NCBI GenBank assembly: GCA_900320055.1
Contig: ONQS01000001.1
Location: 1-64,000 of the forward strand
Reading direction: 5' to 3'
From: an uncultured Prevotellaceae bacterium
GTDB lineage: Bacteria > Bacteroidota > Bacteroidia > Bacteroidales > Muribaculaceae
DNA: 64,000 nt
Part shown: positions 41,910 to 49,809 of the stretch, in pieces
Layout: each line of letters begins with the position of its first letter
Numbering within the stretch: the first letter of the stretch is position 1
Translations under genes and position numbers: made by a program
Notes under the pieces: model-generated
The model's database searches: none
Seen by the model: only the letters and a program-made list of their open reading frames with translations
Told to the model about the DNA's origin: nothing

Positions 41910-43541
41910 ATGAAACGGAAATTCTTTTTTGCATCACTCATGTTGATGGGTGCATCCCTGGTAGCCAACGCACAAGGTTACAAGGACGGTATTGAGTACT
42001 ACAAGGTTGATAATCTTGACAATGCAAAGGAACTGCTCGAGCGCAATCTGAACGCGCCCAGCACCGACAAGGCCGAGGCATTCTATTATCTAGGTCAGAT
42101 CGCCCTGCATCAGGGTAAGGTGGCCGAGGCTGCTGCCAACTTTGAGAAGGGTATTTCGGCCAATGCGATGAACCCCTATAACTATGTGGGTCAGGCCGCT
42201 ATCGCGCTGAAGAATGGCGGTGACGTCAAGACGCTGCTCGAGAAGGCTCGCAAGTTGTCCAAGAAGGATGCCAAGTTGGAGATGGAAATCGCTCGCGCTT
42301 TCTATGATGCCAATCCCACGACCTATGCCAAGGATATTGAGAAGTGCATCAAGAATGCTCGTAAGTGGAATGCTGATGATCCCGACAGTTACATCTTCGA
42401 GGCCGACACCAAGGCCGATCAGAAGGACTGGGGCAATGCAGCCGGCATCTATGAGTTGGCATTTGGCAAGGATCCCAACAACATTGAGGCTTATGTAAAG
42501 TATGCCAACACTTACTTCAATGTGAACCCCACCATGGCCATCGAACGCCTCGAGGAACTCCAGGCCAAGGTGCCTAACTCAGCACTGGTACAGCGTGAAC
42601 TTGCCGAGATGTACTATGCCGACAACCTGGGCGCCAAGGCAGCCGAGCAGTATGGCAAGTATATCAAGAACCCCAACCACTTTGCACAGGACGAGGTGCG
42701 CTACGTGCAGTTGCTGTTCTTCGGTGAGAAGTATCAGGAGTCGCTGGATCTGGCTAGCAGCCTGATCGGCAAACTCGATCCTGCCGACAGCAAGGTCTTC
42801 TACATGAAGCGTATGCAACTCTACAACCTGGTGCAACTCGAGAAGTGGCGCGAGGCCGTTGAGGCTGGTCGTTCCTTCTTTGCCAACGCAATGCCTAAGG
42901 GCTCTAACTATGAGGTTCGTGACTACACCGACTATGGTCAGTCACTGCAGATGGCCGGAATGCCCGAGGAGGCTATCGATGCCTATAACAAGGCTATCGA
43001 CCTCAATCCCAAGAACACCGACCTGATCCGCAACCTCGGTGACACCTATGCCGATGCCGAAAACTTTGTTAAGGCTGCCGAGTACTACCAGCGCCTGGTT
43101 GACATGGGCAAGGACTATTACAAGTCCAACGACTTTTTCACCCTGTCGAACTACTATCTGGGAATTGCCAGCACCGATGGACTCGATGCCGCAACCAAGG
43201 CCGACGCACTTGCCAAGTCTCAGAAGTATATCGACGAGGTAGACCAACTGGTCCCCAACAATGTTCAGATCGTTAACCAGAAGGCTAAGATCGCCAAGTT
43301 CCGTGAGGGTGATAACAACACTGGTGCCGCTTTGAGCGCATACAATGAGTTGCTCTCGATCCTCGAGACTAAGGAGAACAAGCAGGACTATGCACGCTAC
43401 TACAAGTATGCCTACAACTATCTGGCAACTTACTACTTCACCAAGGGTGACAAGGCTACCGCCAAGGAATACTACCAGAAGTGGCTCAAGTATGATCCCG
43501 AAAACGAATCCTTGCGCAACTACGTGAACAGCCTCAAGTAA
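41910..43541 (+). CDS. Exported tetratricopeptide-repeat protein
   Basis: The 543-residue protein has a signal peptide (about 1-22, ending ANAQ). It consists almost wholly of helical TPR units; canonical positions are visible in AEAFYYLGQIALHQGKVAEAAANFEKGI and AIDAYNKAIDLNPKNTDLIRNLGDTYAD. Each fragment has the usual G/A and P-N pattern. It probably acts as a periplasmic scaffold with the upstream PstS-like lipoprotein (126-base gap). A strong terminator 28 bases downstream closes the unit. Confidence 0.88.
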   Translation: MKRKFFFASLMLMGASLVANAQGYKDGIEYYKVDNLDNAKELLERNLNAPSTDKAEAFYYLGQIALHQGKVAEAAANFEKGISANAMNPYNYVGQAAIALKNGGDVKTLLEKARKLSKKDAKLEMEIARAFYDANPTTYAKDIEKCIKNARKWNADDPDSYIFEADTKADQKDWGNAAGIYELAFGKDPNNIEAYVKYANTYFNVNPTMAIERLEELQAKVPNSALVQRELAEMYYADNLGAKAAEQYGKYIKNPNHFAQDEVRYVQLLFFGEKYQESLDLASSLIGKLDPADSKVFYMKRMQLYNLVQLEKWREAVEAGRSFFANAMPKGSNYEVRDYTDYGQSLQMAGMPEEAIDAYNKAIDLNPKNTDLIRNLGDTYADAENFVKAAEYYQRLVDMGKDYYKSNDFFTLSNYYLGIASTDGLDAATKADALAKSQKYIDEVDQLVPNNVQIVNQKAKIAKFREGDNNTGAALSAYNELLSILETKENKQDYARYYKYAYNYLATYYFTKGDKATAKEYYQKWLKYDPENESLRNYVNSLK

Positions 43542-43568
43542 TCACAAGAGACTAATAGAAACCATTTG

Positions 43569-43605
43569 GAGGGTGTGTCTGAATTATGACACACCCTCTT
43601 TTTTT
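43569..43605 (+). terminator. Strong intrinsic terminator
   Basis: A perfect 11-base stem (GAGGGTGTGTC, 43569-43579; GACACACCCTC, 43588-43598) is followed by seven T residues. It ends the TPR transcript and marks the left edge of the accessory island. Confidence 0.93.
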
Positions 43606-43633
43606 ATTTAACAACTTATCAAACAACAATTTA

Positions 43634-43780
43634 ATGACAAGAAAAATGAACAAGATTCAAAGTCTCAAGAACGCTCAGGAATTCCAGGATCTTTTCGGGA
43701 TTCAAGAGCACGCCAAATTAAGTTTTTCCCCTCAAAGATATCCTGCCGTGTCTTTTTCTTTATTCAAGTTGCATGAGTAG
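43634..43780 (+). CDS. Possible small protein or gene remnant (48 residues), uncertain
   Basis: The frame MTRKMNKIQSLKNAQEFQDLF... ends at 43780. The open frame reaches back to 43586, but that start lies inside the terminator. No family is recognised and it could be the 5' stump of a lost gene at the island edge. A bidirectional terminator follows at 43893-43940. Confidence 0.3.
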   Translation: MTRKMNKIQSLKNAQEFQDLFGIQEHAKLSFSPQRYPAVSFSLFKLHE

Positions 43781-43892
43781 TTATTTGATATAACTACTAC
43801 AATTATAGCAGAATGGCAAAAACGTACACTTTTTGAAAATCCCTTAACAGCGAATATAAAAAGTCAAAATCCAATTCCAACTAAACGAAAAA

Positions 43893-43940
43893 GGCCAACT
43901 CTATCAAATTAATGATGGGGTTGGTCTATTTTTCTTTTTC
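43893..43940. terminator. Bidirectional terminator at the island edge
   Basis: GGCCAAC (43893-43899) pairs with GTTGGTC (43920-43926) with one wobble, plus inner pairs. T-rich runs follow on the plus strand (43928-43939) and on the minus strand. It serves the convergent gene ending at 43962. Confidence 0.7.
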
Positions 43941-43961
43941 GGTTCCTCAATTAGAAACTAT

Positions 43962-44648
43962 TTACTTAGCGTGATACATCATTGTCTGAATTATATCGCT
44001 GCTAACTCCATTATCCTTCAAATGCTTTATGGCCTCGGCACTCATATCAAACTTTATTCCTGATGCTAATAACACCTTCCGTTGTATTATGTCCTCTGAG
44101 ATACCGGCTTTTACCATATTGATTACACCTTGATTATTAAGCGATTTATCGAATTCACTATGGTAGCACATGGTTTGAATAATCCTATCGCTGACACCAT
44201 TTTCTTGCAGATCCAAAATGGCGGGTAAACTGGTGTCATATTTAACGCCTGAAGATAGAAGAACTTTTCGGTCAATGGTCTCTTCGTCAATCCCGCTATT
44301 CACCATATCGATGACACCCTGATTAGCCTTATGACGTTTATAGTTGGTGGATATCGGTTTAGAGATCGATTTTGTATTCTGGGGCTTATCTTGGACATTA
44401 TTCCCACTTTTAGCATAAACCATCTCTTCGATAATTGCATTGCTCACATTATTATCCACGAGAACACGTAATGCAGAAACACTAGTATCAAACGTATTCT
44501 TGTCAGTAGAGATTTTTGCAATTATAACCTCATCAGATAATCCCATCTTTACCATATCAATGATGGCTTGATTATCTAATACTTCCTCTTGGGCATATGA
44601 GCAGAAGAAGAGCAAAGACGAAATAATAACGAAGAATATCCTTTTCAT
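43962..44648 (-). CDS. Exported protein with three tandem helical repeats, unknown function
   Basis: The 228-residue protein has a signal peptide (1-19, ending SYAQ). Three repeats of about 55 residues (26-80, 110-165, 172-228) share the pattern NQxxIxMVxxGIxxexI, then KVLLxSGxKxDxSxxAI and NGVSxxIIQTMxYH. Repeats 2 and 3 are the closest; repeat 1 is shorter and diverged. Similar MV-x-GLS-x-x-I-I helices occur in other bacterial exported proteins of unknown role. The gene is AT-rich and lies 27 bases after the 79-residue gene, probably in one operon. Confidence 0.72.
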   Translation of the reverse strand: MKRIFFVIISSLLFFCSYAQEEVLDNQAIIDMVKMGLSDEVIIAKISTDKNTFDTSVSALRVLVDNNVSNAIIEEMVYAKSGNNVQDKPQNTKSISKPISTNYKRHKANQGVIDMVNSGIDEETIDRKVLLSSGVKYDTSLPAILDLQENGVSDRIIQTMCYHSEFDKSLNNQGVINMVKAGISEDIIQRKVLLASGIKFDMSAEAIKHLKDNGVSSDIIQTMMYHAK

Positions 44649-44675
44649 TGCATTAAATTTTGAATATAGTTTTAA

Positions 44676-44915
44676 TCACTCTGTGACATTAAGAAACTGT
44701 AGAGCTTTTTTGGGGGTAGTAGGATAATGATAAACTCCCTTTTCCCTATAGCTCTTGGTCTTGACCACATTGGAGAACACTCTATAGAAGTCAGCTTTTG
44801 TCATGGAAAAAGTGCCTTCTGGAGTATGTACACTAAAAAAATCATTATCAGTTAATGACTCTATCACCTCAGCTCTAAACAATAGCCTTGTAGCTTTATA
44901 CTCATTATTCGACAT
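44676..44915 (-). CDS. Small conserved-type hypothetical protein (79 residues)
   Basis: The protein is compact without a signal peptide. It has a beta-rich N-terminal half (LFRAEVIES, FFSVHTPEGTFSMTKADFYRVF) and a Tyr/Lys-rich C-terminal half (YREKGVYHYPTTPKKALQFL). I do not recognise a named domain. It has its own promoter element (44938-44945) and starts a likely two-gene operon with the triple-repeat exported protein. Codon use is AT-rich, like the rest of the island. Conservation of the YHYPTTPKKAL segment would be the best search handle. Confidence 0.65.
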   Translation of the reverse strand: MSNNEYKATRLLFRAEVIESLTDNDFFSVHTPEGTFSMTKADFYRVFSNVVKTKSYREKGVYHYPTTPKKALQFLNVTE

Positions 44916-44937
44916 AGCTATCCTTTTTTGTTCTTTG

Positions 44938-44945
44938 CAAAGGTA
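44938..44945 (-). promoter_or_regulatory. -7 element of the 79-residue gene
   Basis: Minus-strand TACCTTTG is 22 bases upstream of the start at 44915. No TTTG lies at the ideal distance. Confidence 0.5.
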
Positions 44946-45054
44946 AGCATTCTTTCAAATAATATCTTCAATTTCAGTGATAAAACTTGACTTTCAACAA
45001 ACGGGAAGAATGGTATTGTTTGTTCCTATCCTCCTATTCAACAAGTGCGTAAGC

Positions 45055-45125
45055 CTTTTATCCGACATTCACAGACCCTCGAAGCCTAAAGCGAGAGAGG
45101 GTCGTCAAGTGAATGAGGGTAAAAG
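45055..45125. repeat. Long imperfect hairpin in the 329-base gap after the nuclease pair
   Basis: Nested arms (last three digits) are CTTTTATCC (055-063) with GGGTAAAAG (117-125, one wobble), CATTCAC (066-072) with GTGAATG (109-115), and ACCCTC (075-080) with GAGGGT (097-102). The loop is 16 bases. No T-run follows on either strand. It may be a structured RNA or a recombination site. The rest of this gap (44946-45244) holds one copy of the 17-base direct repeat and no ORF I can support. Confidence 0.65.
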
Positions 45126-45180
45126 TATAGCGAAAAGGTTCTGAGGAGATTCCGAATATAATGAGGAATCGATCAGGTTC

Positions 45181-45197
45181 TTGAGCGGATTGTGATT
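45181..45197. repeat. Left copy of 17-base imperfect direct repeat flanking the nuclease pair
   Basis: TTGAGCGGATTGTGATT matches the right copy at 47209-47225 at 15 of 17 positions (both differences A/G). The two copies bracket the 2.0-kb two-gene nuclease module. Confidence 0.6.
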
Positions 45198-45244
45198 AGA
45201 GAATAGAGAGAACCACAACTAATCTAAGCTCTACAACAAATTTG

Positions 45245-46249
45245 CTAATCGTCCCAATATCTAGTCCGTAAGTAATCAATCATATTGCTTATATGCTTAT
45301 CATTTATGAACGGGGCAATGGTAAGAGGCTTCAATAAATCATATGGATCGATACAGCAAAACAAATCTGGATTATTTAGCATTGGTTTATAGTTATCATC
45401 CACCGACTGACGTAATTCTTCATTTTTGTCTGGAACAACAAAGATGTGGATGAAATGGTCAGCCAGTCCTAATCTGATTATCTGTTCTATCAATAATGTT
45501 TGACGCATCAGTTCATATTGAGGTTCTTTCATGTAGATAGAATGCGGCACACCATCTGTTGGAACTTTCAATTGCTCCGATTTTTCAATTAGATGCTGAT
45601 ATCTTTGAAGACGTTTGGAACATGTCTTATCCTGGTCTTCATATGCTTCCGTATATTTCCATTCAATAGGAATGAGATATATTTCTTCATCTTTTTGAGC
45701 ACGGATCATGGCATCTATTGATGTACAAAAAGCTCCTCTTTGTGCTCCTTTATCACCTTCTCCAAGCAATTCTTTGTTATTATAAGTAAACTCAAAAGCG
45801 ATTAATCCGTCATTGTCCAACGCAGGAAGAATTGAGTCAAATTCGATACCTGTTGCATTAAGCAATATAGCCTTAATCGCTTCTTCATTATTTCTTATTC
45901 CAAAAAGATGATTAAGGCAATGGATCTGAGAAGACAGAACATTACCCGTCGGAGCTGCTGATGACTCTTTTGCCATATGCCACCAAGCTATCTTATGAGC
46001 CTTAAAATAGTTGATAGCATCGTCATATATTGACGATAATAAATTCTTGGAACTATCTTTTAGTATCCACTCTTTTGATGACTCATGTAACAACCCTGAT
46101 GGATCCTTACGCGAAGCCATTCCTCCATTCTCAGCATGATAGAATATATGTCCTTGAGTATCCGACTCAATCAAATGTACCTGACGGCGTTTTTCTGCCT
46201 TCTTGAATTCCGTATCCTTAACTTTTGACTTTATACAATGTTCTAACAT
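45245..46249 (-). CDS. PD-(D/E)XK-type nuclease, PGN_0703-like
   Basis: The protein is 334 residues from the ATG at 46249. A GTG at 46261, overlapping the upstream stop as GTGA, would add four residues and is an alternative start. The restriction-endonuclease-like core is visible: an early Glu in LIAFEFTY (Glu153), Asp179 in CTSIDAMIRA, then Glu196-x-Lys198 in LIPIEWKYTEAY. The pattern and the CLNHLFGIRNNEEA segment resemble the PGN_0703 family of putative restriction endonucleases. No methyltransferase is nearby. It is the downstream member of a coupled pair with another PD-(D/E)XK protein. It is AT-rich and probably horizontally acquired. Target unknown. Confidence 0.75.
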   Translation of the reverse strand: MLEHCIKSKVKDTEFKKAEKRRQVHLIESDTQGHIFYHAENGGMASRKDPSGLLHESSKEWILKDSSKNLLSSIYDDAINYFKAHKIAWWHMAKESSAAPTGNVLSSQIHCLNHLFGIRNNEEAIKAILLNATGIEFDSILPALDNDGLIAFEFTYNNKELLGEGDKGAQRGAFCTSIDAMIRAQKDEEIYLIPIEWKYTEAYEDQDKTCSKRLQRYQHLIEKSEQLKVPTDGVPHSIYMKEPQYELMRQTLLIEQIIRLGLADHFIHIFVVPDKNEELRQSVDDNYKPMLNNPDLFCCIDPYDLLKPLTIAPFINDKHISNMIDYLRTRYWDD

Positions 46250-46257
46250 GTTGGTTT

Positions 46258-47082
46258 TCACACTTCGCTAATGATTGAATAAGTGACTTTTTCTCTTTGG
46301 AGGATTTCTTCCATTCTACATAAATGGGTCTTACGTCTACCTCGTTTATCCATGTATGTCCATCGGTTGAATATCAAAAGTTCTGGGACTGTTGACACCT
46401 TTTGTGGACGAACTCTGGGAACAGGCAGACCCAATTCCTTCTTTATGTCATATACTTTTTGATAATAAGTAAGAATTTGTTCCTTATATTTTGTGATGAA
46501 GTCGGCATAACTCTTCATCTGAAATACAATCTCAGGTCTATCATCTGTTTTCTTTAGCATCCTACCGTCATCAAGTCGTTTCAGTTCCACAAAGACTACA
46601 GTTCCATTTACGCATTTCACGAGGTCAATACGGACGTTATTACCAATCTCATCAGTGTAAGCGAACTCAGAATCAAGATGGGTGTCTCTGTTGTTGATTA
46701 TCAACTGTCCTTGAATATATTTCTCGGACCATGAAGACTTATCAGAACCATTCTTTTGGGAATAATACTGTCTGATCCCATATATTATCGTATCAATCTG
46801 CTTATCTATAGTACTAGCACAGTTCACATATGTTCTGGATTTATCCGCTAAACCGAGATATTTATAATGGGTAAAGGTTTGCAATTCCTTATGTTTGGAA
46901 CAATAATGAACTTTAATGATGCTTCCCCCTTCGAAATAGACATTAATGTTGTTATCCTTTCTCACTTCGATGTAAAAAGCTTTCTCATTTTTACAATACT
47001 GCCACCAAAAGGGATTGTTGTTTTTAAGTTCGTCAAATATCTTGGCGTTGCTTTTTAGTGTATTGAATGTTGTTTTTGCCAT
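46258..47082 (-). CDS. PD-(D/E)XK-type nuclease with RecB-like QxxxY motif
   Basis: The 274-residue protein has a divergent N-terminal half (about 1-115). A nuclease core follows with Asp153 in NVRIDLVKC, then Glu166-x-Lys168 in VVFVELKRL, and after a helix QMKSY (Gln188), which fits the QxxxY motif of RecB/AddB-like nucleases. The C-terminal part is basic (YMDKRGRRKTH). It is predicted to be a magnesium-dependent DNase. Its stop overlaps the possible GTG start of the next nuclease gene, so the two are probably translated together. It has its own promoter element at 47164-47171. Confidence 0.72.
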   Translation of the reverse strand: MAKTTFNTLKSNAKIFDELKNNNPFWWQYCKNEKAFYIEVRKDNNINVYFEGGSIIKVHYCSKHKELQTFTHYKYLGLADKSRTYVNCASTIDKQIDTIIYGIRQYYSQKNGSDKSSWSEKYIQGQLIINNRDTHLDSEFAYTDEIGNNVRIDLVKCVNGTVVFVELKRLDDGRMLKKTDDRPEIVFQMKSYADFITKYKEQILTYYQKVYDIKKELGLPVPRVRPQKVSTVPELLIFNRWTYMDKRGRRKTHLCRMEEILQREKVTYSIISEV

Positions 47083-47163
47083 ATTATTTTTCTATTTAGT
47101 CTTGGTAAATGTAAAACCTCTTTTATCCACTGTTTCTGCTAAGTTAGTGATTTAGTTGACTTG

Positions 47164-47171
47164 CAAATATA
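47164..47171 (-). promoter_or_regulatory. -7 element of the two-gene nuclease module
   Basis: Minus-strand TATATTTG lies 82 bases upstream of the start at 47082. TTTG occurs 15 bases further upstream, closer than ideal. It suggests the module can be transcribed independently. Confidence 0.5.
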
Positions 47172-47208
47172 CTACTTTTCTTTAATCAAATCAATCTGAA
47201 TTAAGATT

Positions 47209-47225
47209 TTGAGCGGGTTGTGGTT
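47209..47225. repeat. Right copy of the 17-base direct repeat
   Basis: TTGAGCGGGTTGTGGTT lies eight bases past the stop of the 225-residue gene and before the nuclease-pair promoter. It matches 45181-45197 at 15 of 17 positions. Confidence 0.6.
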
Positions 47226-47232
47226 CACTTTG

Positions 47233-47910
47233 TCACTCCAAAAGATGACTTATATCTTCACCTTTCTTATTGTTACTCCTGCGGTTACCCTCTAAGGCAT
47301 AGCATCTTATTAGTGTTTTGCCTTCTTTATTGTTGAGCTTGATCTTTCTCTTTAATGAGCCGATGGTTTTTGTTTCTTCATTTCCAGCTGTATATGATTT
47401 AAGTACCTCAATGAAATATGTGAGAATGCCATCACCTTCTTTATCCAACTTTAAAAGATCCTTCTCGTGGTCTGTTGCATCTGCATTGTTAGCTTTGAAC
47501 TCAATCAGGCAAACTCTCTCTTGTTTTTCGTTAAAGATGACCATATCGAACTCTCCGCTACGGCCATTATCATTTTGTTGGGGGTCTGATGAAAAGCCTT
47601 TATACTTTAGTCTGGTTGGCGTTTCAACCGAATAAAACAGATTATTGTCCTTAACGGCTTGCGAAGCATTAAAAGCCTCAACAAAAGCAAACCGAAGCTC
47701 TTGCTCACTTATTCGTGTTTCACCATTGCTAAAGTGAGGAAAAACTATTCTCGTCTTAGTCTCTCCCGCTTTGGGCGCTGAATCATCATTTATTACTCCT
47801 TCACGATGATACTGGTAGGCATAGTTAATACGACTGAATGCATCAACCACAATGTCATCTATAATCCCTTTCAGGATTTCTTTTAAATCGTTTTTTTCTT
47901 TTTCGTTCAT
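47233..47910 (-). CDS. PD-(D/E)XK-type nuclease-like protein (225 residues)
   Basis: The core pattern is an N-terminal helix with Glu71/Glu78 (SEQELRFAFVEAF), Asp122 in GEFDMVIFN, and Glu137-x-Lys139 in VCLIEFKANN, which fits E-D-ExK nucleases. A C-terminal helical and basic region follows (SLKRKIKLNNKEGK). The N-terminal 50 residues are helical and acidic. No named family recognised. It begins 41 bases after the 158-residue unknown gene, so it is likely cotranscribed with the coupled pair upstream. It is the third distinct nuclease-type protein in this island. Confidence 0.68.
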   Translation of the reverse strand: MNEKEKNDLKEILKGIIDDIVVDAFSRINYAYQYHREGVINDDSAPKAGETKTRIVFPHFSNGETRISEQELRFAFVEAFNASQAVKDNNLFYSVETPTRLKYKGFSSDPQQNDNGRSGEFDMVIFNEKQERVCLIEFKANNADATDHEKDLLKLDKEGDGILTYFIEVLKSYTAGNEETKTIGSLKRKIKLNNKEGKTLIRCYALEGNRRSNNKKGEDISHLLE

Positions 47911-47951
47911 AGTTACACGTTATTTTATTGATTGTTTCTCTGTGAATTGGA

Positions 47952-48428
47952 TTATAATCTACTGTCCTTAGTTACCCAATCACGTATGTTTTCGAGATTC
48001 TCTTCATCGACAAAGATGACTCGCAGGGTAATATCGTCTTGGAGACTGCTAGTGCTAAAGAAATGGTCAAATACCATATCCAAGGACTTGCAGTCGTCAA
48101 TAAACCTCAGAATCTCCCTGCTGAATGCCTCGTTGTCACTATTACCGTCTGACATGATGATGTGGATGAAACACAGCAGCCCGTAGTTGGTGTGTATTCC
48201 AGGGATAGGCATCAACATGTTTCTCAATTCACCAAAGAGATCATTAGCATTGTCGTATGTGTATCTGCACTCGACATAATTAACCACATCGAAATCGAAC
48301 ATCCATTCCATGTCGCTTAACCGGCATGAGGATTGTTCAAGACTGGCACCCGCCCCGGGAGCGAATATCTGCTCCAGCAGGGTCAGGCGTTCAGTCGTTG
48401 TCAGGTTCTTGAGAATCCGCTGTTTCAT
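47952..48428 (-). CDS. Unknown protein (158 residues), coupled to the Trp-rich protein
   Basis: The start is the ATG at 48428 (MKQRILKNLTTTERL), which overlaps the previous stop as ATGA. A longer open frame upstream runs through the other gene in a wrong frame. The protein is mixed alpha/beta and acidic (DMEWMFDFDVVNYVECRY, IHIIMSDGNSDNEAF, RVIFVDEENLENI). No motif allows a function to be named. Position suggests it works with the 182-residue Trp-rich protein and the nuclease that follows 41 bases later. Confidence 0.62.
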   Translation of the reverse strand: MKQRILKNLTTTERLTLLEQIFAPGAGASLEQSSCRLSDMEWMFDFDVVNYVECRYTYDNANDLFGELRNMLMPIPGIHTNYGLLCFIHIIMSDGNSDNEAFSREILRFIDDCKSLDMVFDHFFSTSSLQDDITLRVIFVDEENLENIRDWVTKDSRL

Positions 48429-48973
48429 TGCTCGTTCATCTTTAGCCACAGGCGTTCCACTTCTTGTTGGTGGAGGGCGAACTCCAGTTTTGATCCGCTG
48501 AATCCGTTGAGGGGGACTCGCTCGAAGAATTGGGAGTAGAACTCGCGGGCGTCGTAGTCTTCCCATGAGCGCCACGCCATTGCGCTCCAGTCCCATTTGG
48601 CGATGTACTTGCGGACAAGTTCGTTGGTCATTCTCACGTTAGGGTTCGCGGTGAGGGCTTTCCAGTCCCACAGGGGGGCGAGTGCTTCGATTCCTTCGGC
48701 CATTACCGCCTGGCCGTGAGCGCATCTTGAGAACAGGTTCCAGTTCAGTTTGTCTTTCCATCGCAGGGCCATCTCGGTGGTCCATTCGATTTCGTTGTTT
48801 CGGGAGACTTCGTCCCAGAGGAGCTGTTGCTCGTACTTTTCCAGGTGGGTCGCCGTCAGGGGGCGTTTTCGTGAGACGGTCATCCATGCTTGCCGTTCGA
48901 TTTGTTTTTCCAGACCTGCTGCCATTTCCACCCGTCGCATCTCCGCTCGATTGTTGATGATTACTTCGTCCAT
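48425..48973 (-). CDS. Trp-rich WDW-repeat protein, unknown function
   Basis: The protein is 182 residues from the ATG at 48973 (MDEVIINNRAEMRR); a start at 49009 would add twelve. Degenerate repeats are built on W-x-W and aromatic-rich helices: LWDEVSRN, WKDKLNWNLFSRC, LWDWKALTANPNVRMT and KWDWSAMAWRSWEDYD. This resembles repeat proteins of Bacteroidales annotated only as hypothetical. Base composition is clearly richer in GC than the flanking genes, so it has a different origin or age from the AT-rich nucleases. It heads the predicted operon; its stop overlaps the next ATG by four bases. Confidence 0.66.
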   Translation of the reverse strand: MDEVIINNRAEMRRVEMAAGLEKQIERQAWMTVSRKRPLTATHLEKYEQQLLWDEVSRNNEIEWTTEMALRWKDKLNWNLFSRCAHGQAVMAEGIEALAPLWDWKALTANPNVRMTNELVRKYIAKWDWSAMAWRSWEDYDAREFYSQFFERVPLNGFSGSKLEFALHQQEVERLWLKMNEQ

Positions 48974-49371
48974 TTTTTGAGAATTTTTGATTATTAAAGT
49001 TGACTGCATTAAGCGTTTTTGAGTCGCGCTTATATATAGATATACGATTAACGAATGTTAAGAAAAAAACGAAAACGGCCAAAACGAGCCAGAAATGCCA
49101 TCATTCAGCCCTAGAACTAGCCATGTTATCTATTGAAAATAAACTGATTATATTCAATTTAACAATATTTAACTCCACCCTCTCCAACAGCAGTATTTTT
49201 AATCAAGCTCAAGACTCCACCTTTTCTACCCCAAAAACTCAATTTTCGCCTCGTTTCTTCCCATCCACACCACTTCTCATTCTTACATTAAACCCTTATA
49301 TGTAAGAGAATTAGATAACATTTTTATTAACAATTTAAACTAGCATTTACAAACAAAACAGAGAGAAGACA
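48974..49371. other. Intergenic, AT-rich, no supported gene
   Basis: This divergent gap holds the unmapped promoters for the minus-strand island operon and the plus-strand gene at 49372. I see no consensus -7 element, ORF or strong hairpin in it. A pyrimidine-rich stretch (49178-49275) is notable. Confidence 0.5.
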
Positions 49372-49605
49372 ATGAACATTTTACCAAGAATCGTCATGGC
49401 CTTGTTTGGTATATCTGCTGTATTGGATATCGCAGAGAAGATCCACAATTGGGGCCGTGACAAGAAGAACGAGAAAGAAGAAGAGAAGAAACAAGATCAG
49501 CCATCCATTTTTGAGTGCCGGGCTGAGATTACATGGACGAAGAATATGGCAGAGAGATCGCTAATTACATCTTTAGCATCTTCTGTACTAATCCTTTTGT
49601 GGTAA
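49372..49605 (+). CDS. Small membrane-anchored hypothetical protein (77 residues)
   Basis: An N-terminal hydrophobic helix (about 3-20: ILPRIVMALFGISAVLDIA) is followed by a highly charged stretch (DKKNEKEEEKKQDQ) and a tail. The start follows a purine-rich GAGAGAAGACA stretch. The last 24 codons overlap the next gene in another frame, so the C-terminus may be a product of mutation and the original end may have been shorter or different. No family recognised. Confidence 0.42.
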   Translation: MNILPRIVMALFGISAVLDIAEKIHNWGRDKKNEKEEEKKQDQPSIFECRAEITWTKNMAERSLITSLASSVLILLW

Positions 49606-49766
49606 TGAGTTGGGGAATAAACCTGGCTAGCGTTACGGTCGTTGACGTTGGTGTGAAATTCCATGTACAAGGATTCATTCACACTGCATCTGTTGGGTCC
49701 GATGCTGATCAGATTGCCTATGGCGCTAGTAAAGTTGTAAAGTCGGCTTGCAAGTTCTTTTTTTAG
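49533..49766 (+). CDS. Small hypothetical protein overlapping the previous gene (77 residues)
   Basis: The frame begins MDEEYGREIANYIFSIFC, and TNPFVVMSWGINLASVTV and KFHVQGFIHT follow. This resembles a small Bacteroidales family with an SWG and VQGF core that I recall only as hypothetical. The C-terminal third looks atypical for it, so drift or truncation is possible. It overlaps the upstream ORF by 73 bases in the other frame. There is no signal peptide. Confidence 0.48.
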   Translation: MDEEYGREIANYIFSIFCTNPFVVMSWGINLASVTVVDVGVKFHVQGFIHTASVGSDADQIAYGASKVVKSACKFFF

Positions 49767-49801
49767 CACGATAAAGTATTAGCGCTGTGGTTTTTTTTGA
49801 T

Positions 49802-49809
49802 TAAATTTG
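49802..49809 (+). promoter_or_regulatory. -7 element of the subtilase-ruvA-sprA operon
   Basis: TAAATTTG fits TAnnTTTG, 15 bases before the subtilase ATG at 49825, giving a very short leader. Confidence 0.55.

Follow-up and report, generated by a model that had tools for sequence, protein, structure and literature searches.

Which genes belong together in a run of putative nucleases that carries no methyltransferase, and how might they act? The question is posed by five minus-strand genes at positions 45,245–48,973 of a 64,000-nucleotide (nt) stretch of contig ONQS01000001.1 (the window), from an uncultured Prevotellaceae bacterium placed by GTDB in the Muribaculaceae. Their products are labelled p1 to p5, p5 being first in the minus-strand gene order. 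The original prediction took them for an undescribed defence-type cassette. The presence of several unlike PD-(D/E)XK proteins without a methyltransferase or helicase was borne out, but the five genes do not make one system: the cassette is two modules and a head, namely a p2–p1 pair, p4 with an exchangeable putative nuclease (p3 in the window), and a p5–p4 head. In other genomes p2 is usually accompanied by a metallo-hydrolase, which p1 can replace, and we regard the locus as, on balance, probably a mobile, methylase-free, modular nuclease defence cassette of interchangeable parts.

p2 and p1 carry conserved nuclease motifs

The constant member of these pairs is p2 (274 amino acids (aa); 46,258–47,082, minus strand), for which no model passed in Pfam, NCBIfam or PADLOC and which matched PHROGs only at E ≥ 0.06. 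Across the 49 rows of an alignment in which the window protein is one row, its D153/E166/K168 motif does not vary, nor do E139 and Q188. The AlphaFold (AF2) model has a mean predicted local distance difference test score (pLDDT) of 94.1 and a predicted template modelling (TM) score (pTM) of 0.90. It shows an N-terminal alpha/beta domain and a predicted helix-beta-beta-beta-helix order with the motif residues on three strands. The model thus places a D-x(n)-E-x-K signature that is kept in homologues on the core strands, as expected of the PD-(D/E)XK superfamily, to which we assign p2 as an unnamed family.

Foldseek searches with this model returned no match in the Protein Data Bank (PDB) at E ≤ 0.001. 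R2 retrotransposon proteins and Cdn1 had the lowest E-values; Shedu SduA (8ps4), sixth by E-value (E 0.033, TMq 0.36), had the highest probability (0.96). From this result p2 has no close relative among solved proteins. Against viral models there was likewise no match at E ≤ 0.001, and the top 50 included several named PD-(D/E)XK or restriction proteins with low TM-scores. Searched by sequence, neither p2 nor p3 matched a solved structure at E ≤ 1. Membership of p2 in Shedu was considered and rejected, there being no match to DUF4263 at E ≤ 1.

Next to p2 lies p1 (338 aa from a GTG start; 45,245–46,261, minus strand), whose start overlaps the end of p2 by 4 nt (GTGA). It matches Pfam REase-ARP (PF22558; E 1.3e-31, 110.7 bits against a curated cut-off of 27) and PDDEXK_13 (PF20796; E 1.1e-14), and by this score its sequence assigns it to REase-ARP as a putative PD-(D/E)XK nuclease. 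D183/E200/K202, which become D179/E196/K198 when counted from an ATG four codons in, are invariant in seven rows, the window protein being one. A search of solved structures by sequence gave p1 only two unrelated matches at E > 0.06. The three predicted cores of p1, p2 and p3, each invariant among homologues, had been described as unlike one another, and indeed none of the three proteins matches another by blastp at E ≤ 0.1.

p2 is paired with either of two putative nucleases

About 85,000 species were scanned with a ten-row p2 alignment and a single peptide pattern, a procedure that finds only p2 genes keeping that pattern. This gave 118 stretches and 61 confirmed loci, of which L096, a contig-edge piece only, was left out. 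The remaining 60 are loci and not independent events, because several are near-identical and six genomes also occur under our G handles. An RNase J-like beta-CASP metallo-hydrolase (MBL), counted when within three genes of p2 on the same strand, stands beside p2 in 46 of the 60 (44 from gene calls and two, L068 and L072, from tblastn). In eight others p1 takes its place, as a separate gene in L038, L051, L053 and L057 and fused to the end of p2 in L048, L052, L054 and L055. One locus (L089) holds a degenerate MBL remnant and two (L064, L067) are ended by a contig edge. The original prediction had named homologues that never co-occur as evidence against it; the eight loci in which p1 adjoins or is fused to p2 speak to the contrary.

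The same arrangement is seen beyond this set. Eight further divergent p2 genes, which only the 49-row alignment detected, all have an MBL, in L176 as a 277-aa piece, and so does L030, which lies outside the 60. On an IMG/VR contig (L158, 4,179–10,150) p2 and MBL overlap and are followed by a 198-aa restriction-type protein, and the pair lies between genes that read as serine recombinase-like and integrase-like. A Rhizobium plasmid with a MobF relaxase carries an MBL, found by profile at E 4e-86, and a p2 relative detected by tblastn at E 8e-6 and not by the p2 profile, beside an Eco57I-type methylase protein. The HxHxDH site of the MBL is intact and further metal-ligand positions are kept (26 rows); its PDB relatives are EF2904 (2az4; E 3e-34) and RNase J (E 9e-28), and the enzymes closest to it are of the RNase J/CPSF type. 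In L094 and L095 the MBL gene is short or has an altered end.

Within Bacteroidales the distribution is patchy, p2 being present in 17 of 344 genomes of the order and p1 in 21. The window p2 had no match in the phage or plasmid collections; p1 had none in phages and one weak match on a Phenylobacterium plasmid, with no p2 or MBL profile match nearby, and p3 had none in plasmids. In IMG/VR there was one match for the p2 alignment, and none for the single p2 sequence or for the p1 and p3 alignments.

Two further gene clusters recur around p2. A sigma-70-like protein (cluster c3) lies inside or beside many p2 loci (L039–L046, L050, L051, L054, L055), before p2, between p2 and MBL, or after them; ten members have 121–218 aa and three have 287–307 aa. 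Pieces that read as DNA polymerase III alpha-like (cluster c6) lie near p2 in L060, L048, L063 and L046, and the L081 member has 1170 aa.

Partners have been exchanged

The partner does not follow the descent of p2. On the p2 tree the MBL or p1 state needs a minimum of three changes, and a single clade of all p1-linked p2 proteins was rejected by the approximately unbiased (AU) test (p-AU 0.00018). On the p1 tree, built from 29 rows after three partial or weak ones were left out and with the distant relative of p2 in L137 taken as a p2, the p1 proteins linked to p2 form separate groups, with a minimum of four changes. Between L051 and L054, p1 is 87% identical and p2 38%. Taken together, the partner counts of the census and the rejection of a single clade indicate that p2 has interchangeable partner nucleases, as far as sequence comparison can tell.

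p1 in turn has other associates. In L138 and L144, beside a WYL-type gene, it is part of a fusion whose N-terminal partner is a different protein, which by reading has a PD-(D/E)XK-like motif. In L033 it stands behind a GIY-YIG-like protein (E 0.091, below the cut-off), and in L034, with a c7 gene intervening, behind one that has the L033-type N-terminal domain but a different nuclease-like domain. L033 and L034, two genomes of the family, share a locus of a WYL-type gene, a membrane protein, a nuclease-like gene and p1. In L137 the interval between hsdM and hsdS holds p1 and a distant relative of p2, which are followed by a 772-aa AAA_13 protein.

A constant head precedes an exchangeable nuclease slot

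The other module begins with p5 (182 aa; 48,425–48,973, minus strand) and p4 (158 aa; 47,952–48,428, minus strand), whose genes overlap by 4 nt (ATGA). p5 was called Trp-rich, which a count of 12 Trp in its 182 translated residues confirms; it is a repeat protein at the head of the cassette. No Pfam, NCBIfam or PADLOC model passed for either protein, and p5 gave weak PHROG matches of unknown function. Behind p4 lies p3 (225 aa; 47,233–47,910, minus strand), a putative PD-(D/E)XK nuclease with a sub-threshold VRR_NUC match (E 0.0074, 16.8 bits against a cut-off of 23.8) and D122/E137/K139 invariant in five rows including that of the window.

Among 149 genomes of the family p4 occurs in four (its own included), all of the genus of the window; with L038 and G492 this makes six loci. 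In all six the next gene encodes a putative PD-(D/E)XK nuclease, of five kinds: p3 in the window and L038; a DUF6946-like protein in G095, recognised by blastp to Pfam-matched relatives; a c18-type protein in G040; a distant relative of c18 and c30 in G135; and a relative of L043_10 in G492. Four of the slot nucleases were tested as members of an NCBIfam family, which was not supported. In G095, G040 and G135 the p4 stretches are 81–87% identical in DNA and the metallophosphoesterase stretches on the other side 91–93%, and the gene between them shares no DNA similarity at E ≤ 1e-5. G492 carries a p5–p4 that is 91.4% identical in DNA to that of the window; the similarity runs from the start of p5 to the stop codon of p4, and the later genes differ. 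The comparison of these DNA sequences indicates that putative nucleases have been exchanged at gene boundaries. The p5 frame is intact in the window and G492 and interrupted in the L038 assembly. Diverged p5 homologues occur in eight other genomes of the 149, and the six neighbourhoods fetched have no adjoining p4.

A comparable position exists upstream of p2. Of 64 loci (the 60, the window and L028–L030), 17 have a WYL-type regulator no more than five genes upstream of p2 and on its strand, identified by Pfam for one member and by clustering for the others. Between the regulator and p2, 12 of the 17 have a gene of 200 aa or more, c3 excluded; these genes fall into six groups without a mutual match at E ≤ 1e-3, one of them DUF6946 and the others PD-(D/E)XK by motif reading. 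In the window p3 occupies this intervening position and there is no WYL gene. p3 itself was examined as a fixed part of the p2 system and rejected, being near p2, among the p2 loci read, only in the window, in L038 and, differently arranged, in L028; it occurs in four of the 344 Bacteroidales genomes (its own included), one of the four in an hsdM/hsdS locus. Loci of p4 and loci of p2 alike contain the c7 metallophosphoesterase, the L043_10 type and a 121–127-aa gene (L201, L051), so that both appear to be supplied from a common pool of genes. Cluster c7, whose genes stand near those of p1, MBL and p4 in several loci, matches the PADLOC candidate PDC-S10 (L055 member, E 8e-65).

The cassette is a mosaic insertion

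All five open reading frames lie where the original prediction had them, with the p5/p4 and p2/p1 overlaps. A promoter had been placed ahead of the last two genes, and a pattern scan does find a promoter-like site of Bacteroidetes type, TTG-N20-TATATTTG, at 47,194–47,164 on the minus strand before p2. The consensus behind this call is what we take to be that of Bacteroidetes, and the pattern TTG-N18-22-TANNTTTG has 10 matches in the 64 kb on both strands. Seven window proteins in the range 43,962–49,009 were scanned against family models, and none matched a methyltransferase, helicase or transposase, in agreement with the view that this is not a standard restriction-modification system. Furthermore, no ATPase was found among the cassette genes, no MBL or protease model in Pfam matched the window cassette, and the window contains no tRNA or Rfam RNA.

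The guanine-cytosine (GC) content is 55% in p5, 45% in p4 and 36–38% in p3, p2 and p1, against 50% for the window; with such differences the five-gene block is a mosaic. A unit at 45,022–48,987 holding all five genes is also present in L038, a Prevotellaceae bin, where it is 92.9% identical in DNA over 3,971 aligned columns and lies just behind a transposase-like gene, with p5 interrupted. The block is thus found at 93% identity in another bacterial family, a further co-occurrence of the kind the prediction had asked about, and the comparison points to horizontal transfer. The host assignments need caution, because L038 is a metagenome bin and the window genome a draft of 73 contigs. The genes on either side, a TPR-protein gene ending at 43,541 and an S8-type protease gene starting at 49,807 (both named by reading), adjoin directly in G492, G109, G489 and G493, the stretches read out of 12 other same-genus genomes searched, and 43,542–49,806 is therefore an insertion.

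Two more minus-strand genes lie beside the cassette in the same low-GC insertion (43,962–44,915), encoding a 79-aa protein and a 228-aa repeat protein with a signal-like start; no Pfam model passes for either. Upstream of p5, short pieces of 49,270–49,684 recur at 85–90% identity elsewhere in G489 and G492, of the same genus.

Comparison with known defence systems

None of p1–p5 matched PADLOC-DB 2.0.0 at E ≤ 0.01, the best of the seven window proteins being p3 at E 0.026; one p2 relative had no match, and three MBL relatives gave only LmuA, at E 6e-4, for one of them. Descriptions of a p2–MBL or p2–REase-ARP pair were not found in the literature searched, which lacked many subscription papers and most preprints. 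REase-ARP and PDDEXK_13, to which p1 belongs by Pfam score, are domain families and not a system; here REase-ARP replaces the MBL beside p2 and is fused to p2 in four loci. Type IV restriction (GmrSD, McrBC) is similar in using nucleases without a methyltransferase, and its pairs occur as separate or fused genes, as p2 and p1 do. It differs in that no McrB-type GTPase or GmrSD-type domain was found in the seven proteins scanned, and in that the MBL form combines two nuclease folds. Shedu (SduA, DUF4263), a defence PD-(D/E)XK protein, gave p2 its highest-probability structural match, but with the E-value and TMq given above, and it acts as a single protein, unlike the paired p2. The likeness to PDC-S10 is confined to c7, a metallophosphoesterase found in related loci and absent from the cassette.

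A closer parallel may be the trypsin-MBL nuclease modules, described in Hachiman, AVAST, Lamassu, DRT and canu. There the MBL, which has a protease as its partner, is presented as repeatedly acquired as an exchangeable part of defence loci and is likened to the nuclease of ComEC (PMC12799240). The likeness lies in an MBL nuclease as an exchangeable part of defence loci; the MBL described here differs in that it is beta-CASP/RNase J-like, has p2 as its partner and can be replaced by REase-ARP. The exchange of nucleases in defence loci is a known principle, and these proteins and their pairing appear not to have been described.

A possible mechanism and its alternatives

That p2 and p1 act together is very probable, and defence is, from the sequence, quite likely to be the function. 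In the scheme that we tentatively prefer to an abortive one and to others, while thinking it possible rather than probable, p2 would recognise or nick a feature of invading DNA that the host lacks, such as a modified base or a structure of replication or entry. The partner nuclease, adjoining or fused (usually the MBL, here p1), would then degrade the DNA, as in type IV restriction. p5–p4 would form a coupled head apart from this pair, and the PD-(D/E)XK nuclease inserted behind p4 would be one of several and exchangeable. As the cassette has no methyltransferase, self would be spared by target choice or by regulation. Since the partner can be of an unrelated fold, its job would be destruction and not a specific reaction. 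Finally, because p4 stays while the nucleases change, it is unlikely to be a nuclease-specific antitoxin and would more likely be a nuclease-independent regulator or generic sensor. That DNA is the substrate, like the trigger and the parts assigned to p4 and p5, is what we infer. In its widest form, to which we give a little under an even chance, this reading makes the loci an undescribed and widespread type of two-nuclease immunity. A constant p2 would work with interchangeable partners whose folds are unrelated, either beta-CASP RNase J-like or REase-ARP, and either separate or fused. This type would itself include no methylase, ATPase, protease or second messenger. Its nuclease pool would be shared with p4, and arsenals would be rebuilt by exchange at gene boundaries.

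The readings weighed here overlap, and the likelihoods attached to them are judgements and not exclusive. A constant upstream protein with a variable nuclease is a usual layout of abortive or toxin-type systems; p2 and its partner (and p3) could be indiscriminate nucleases restrained by p4 and p5 or by WYL and freed on infection, so that the cell dies, the constant proteins being sensors or antitoxins. The WYL-type regulators before p2 in 17 of 64 loci agree with this, as do the MBL nucleases of Hachiman and AVAST, which are reported to act in this way after proteolytic activation (PMC12799240). Yet the cassette proteins gave no match to a protease, STAND NTPase or cyclase model, the partner MBL is RNase J-like and not ComEC-like, and a p4 kept through a complete change of nuclease is ill-suited to a nuclease-specific antitoxin; we think this explanation unlikely. 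Alternatively, the locus could be debris of a defence island, orphan endonucleases and restriction-modification fragments brought together by chance, with only p2–p1 functional and p3–p5 bystanders. Homologues of p1 and p3 do occur in hsdM/hsdS loci (L137, L151), the GC content is mosaic and p5 is interrupted in the L038 assembly, but the five genes are found together in a single unit that L038 has at 93% identity, with p4 preceding a putative nuclease in six of six loci and motif residues conserved; we consider it quite improbable.

A role outside defence is also a poor candidate. The RNase J-like MBL and its PD-(D/E)XK companion would then be an accessory pair for RNA or DNA processing on mobile islands, serving the replication, repair or competition of the element. 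This would accord with RNase J and CPSF as the nearest relatives of the MBL and with p2–MBL on an IMG/VR element and on a plasmid with a MobF relaxase. The replacement of the MBL by an unrelated PD-(D/E)XK nuclease, however, fits destruction better than RNA processing, and variable nuclease-like genes and a PDC-S10-type gene stand alongside in a patchy 17 of 344 genomes. The preferred reading, of a two-nuclease defence pair beside an exchangeable slot, has its own difficulties. Neither MBL nor p1 is present in three of the 60 p2 loci (L047, L063, L087), nor in L028 and L029 outside the 60. p1 and p2 occur together in 2 of 344 genomes where about one (1.04) is expected; as this is not above chance, genome-level co-occurrence was dropped as an argument, and the link between them is adjacency and fusion. 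Outside the p2 scan and the window, only 5 of 23 p1 neighbourhoods hold a partner that reads as nuclease-like, and the model of the p2–p1 fusion is poor (pTM 0.56) and uninformative on contact. Several of the slot genes are called nucleases from motif reading, and p4 and p5 have no assigned function. The 63 PADLOC families matched at E ≤ 1e-8 among 145 flanking proteins are a count of families with no control set; two flanking proteins matched REase-ARP in Pfam. Because the MBL partner is similar to ribonucleases, RNA is a possible substrate. Defence and nuclease activity are both deduced by comparing sequences.

Implications

If the preferred reading is right, it would add to the Bacteroidales, in which to our knowledge phage defence is poorly mapped, a defence family that PADLOC-DB 2.0.0 does not cover and for whose central protein, p2, Pfam has no family, in 17 of 344 genomes sampled from the order. 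The same head followed by different nucleases would be a natural experiment on how a methylase-free nuclease spares its own genome, and the p2 loci would raise the question of whether one constant protein can drive unrelated partner nucleases.

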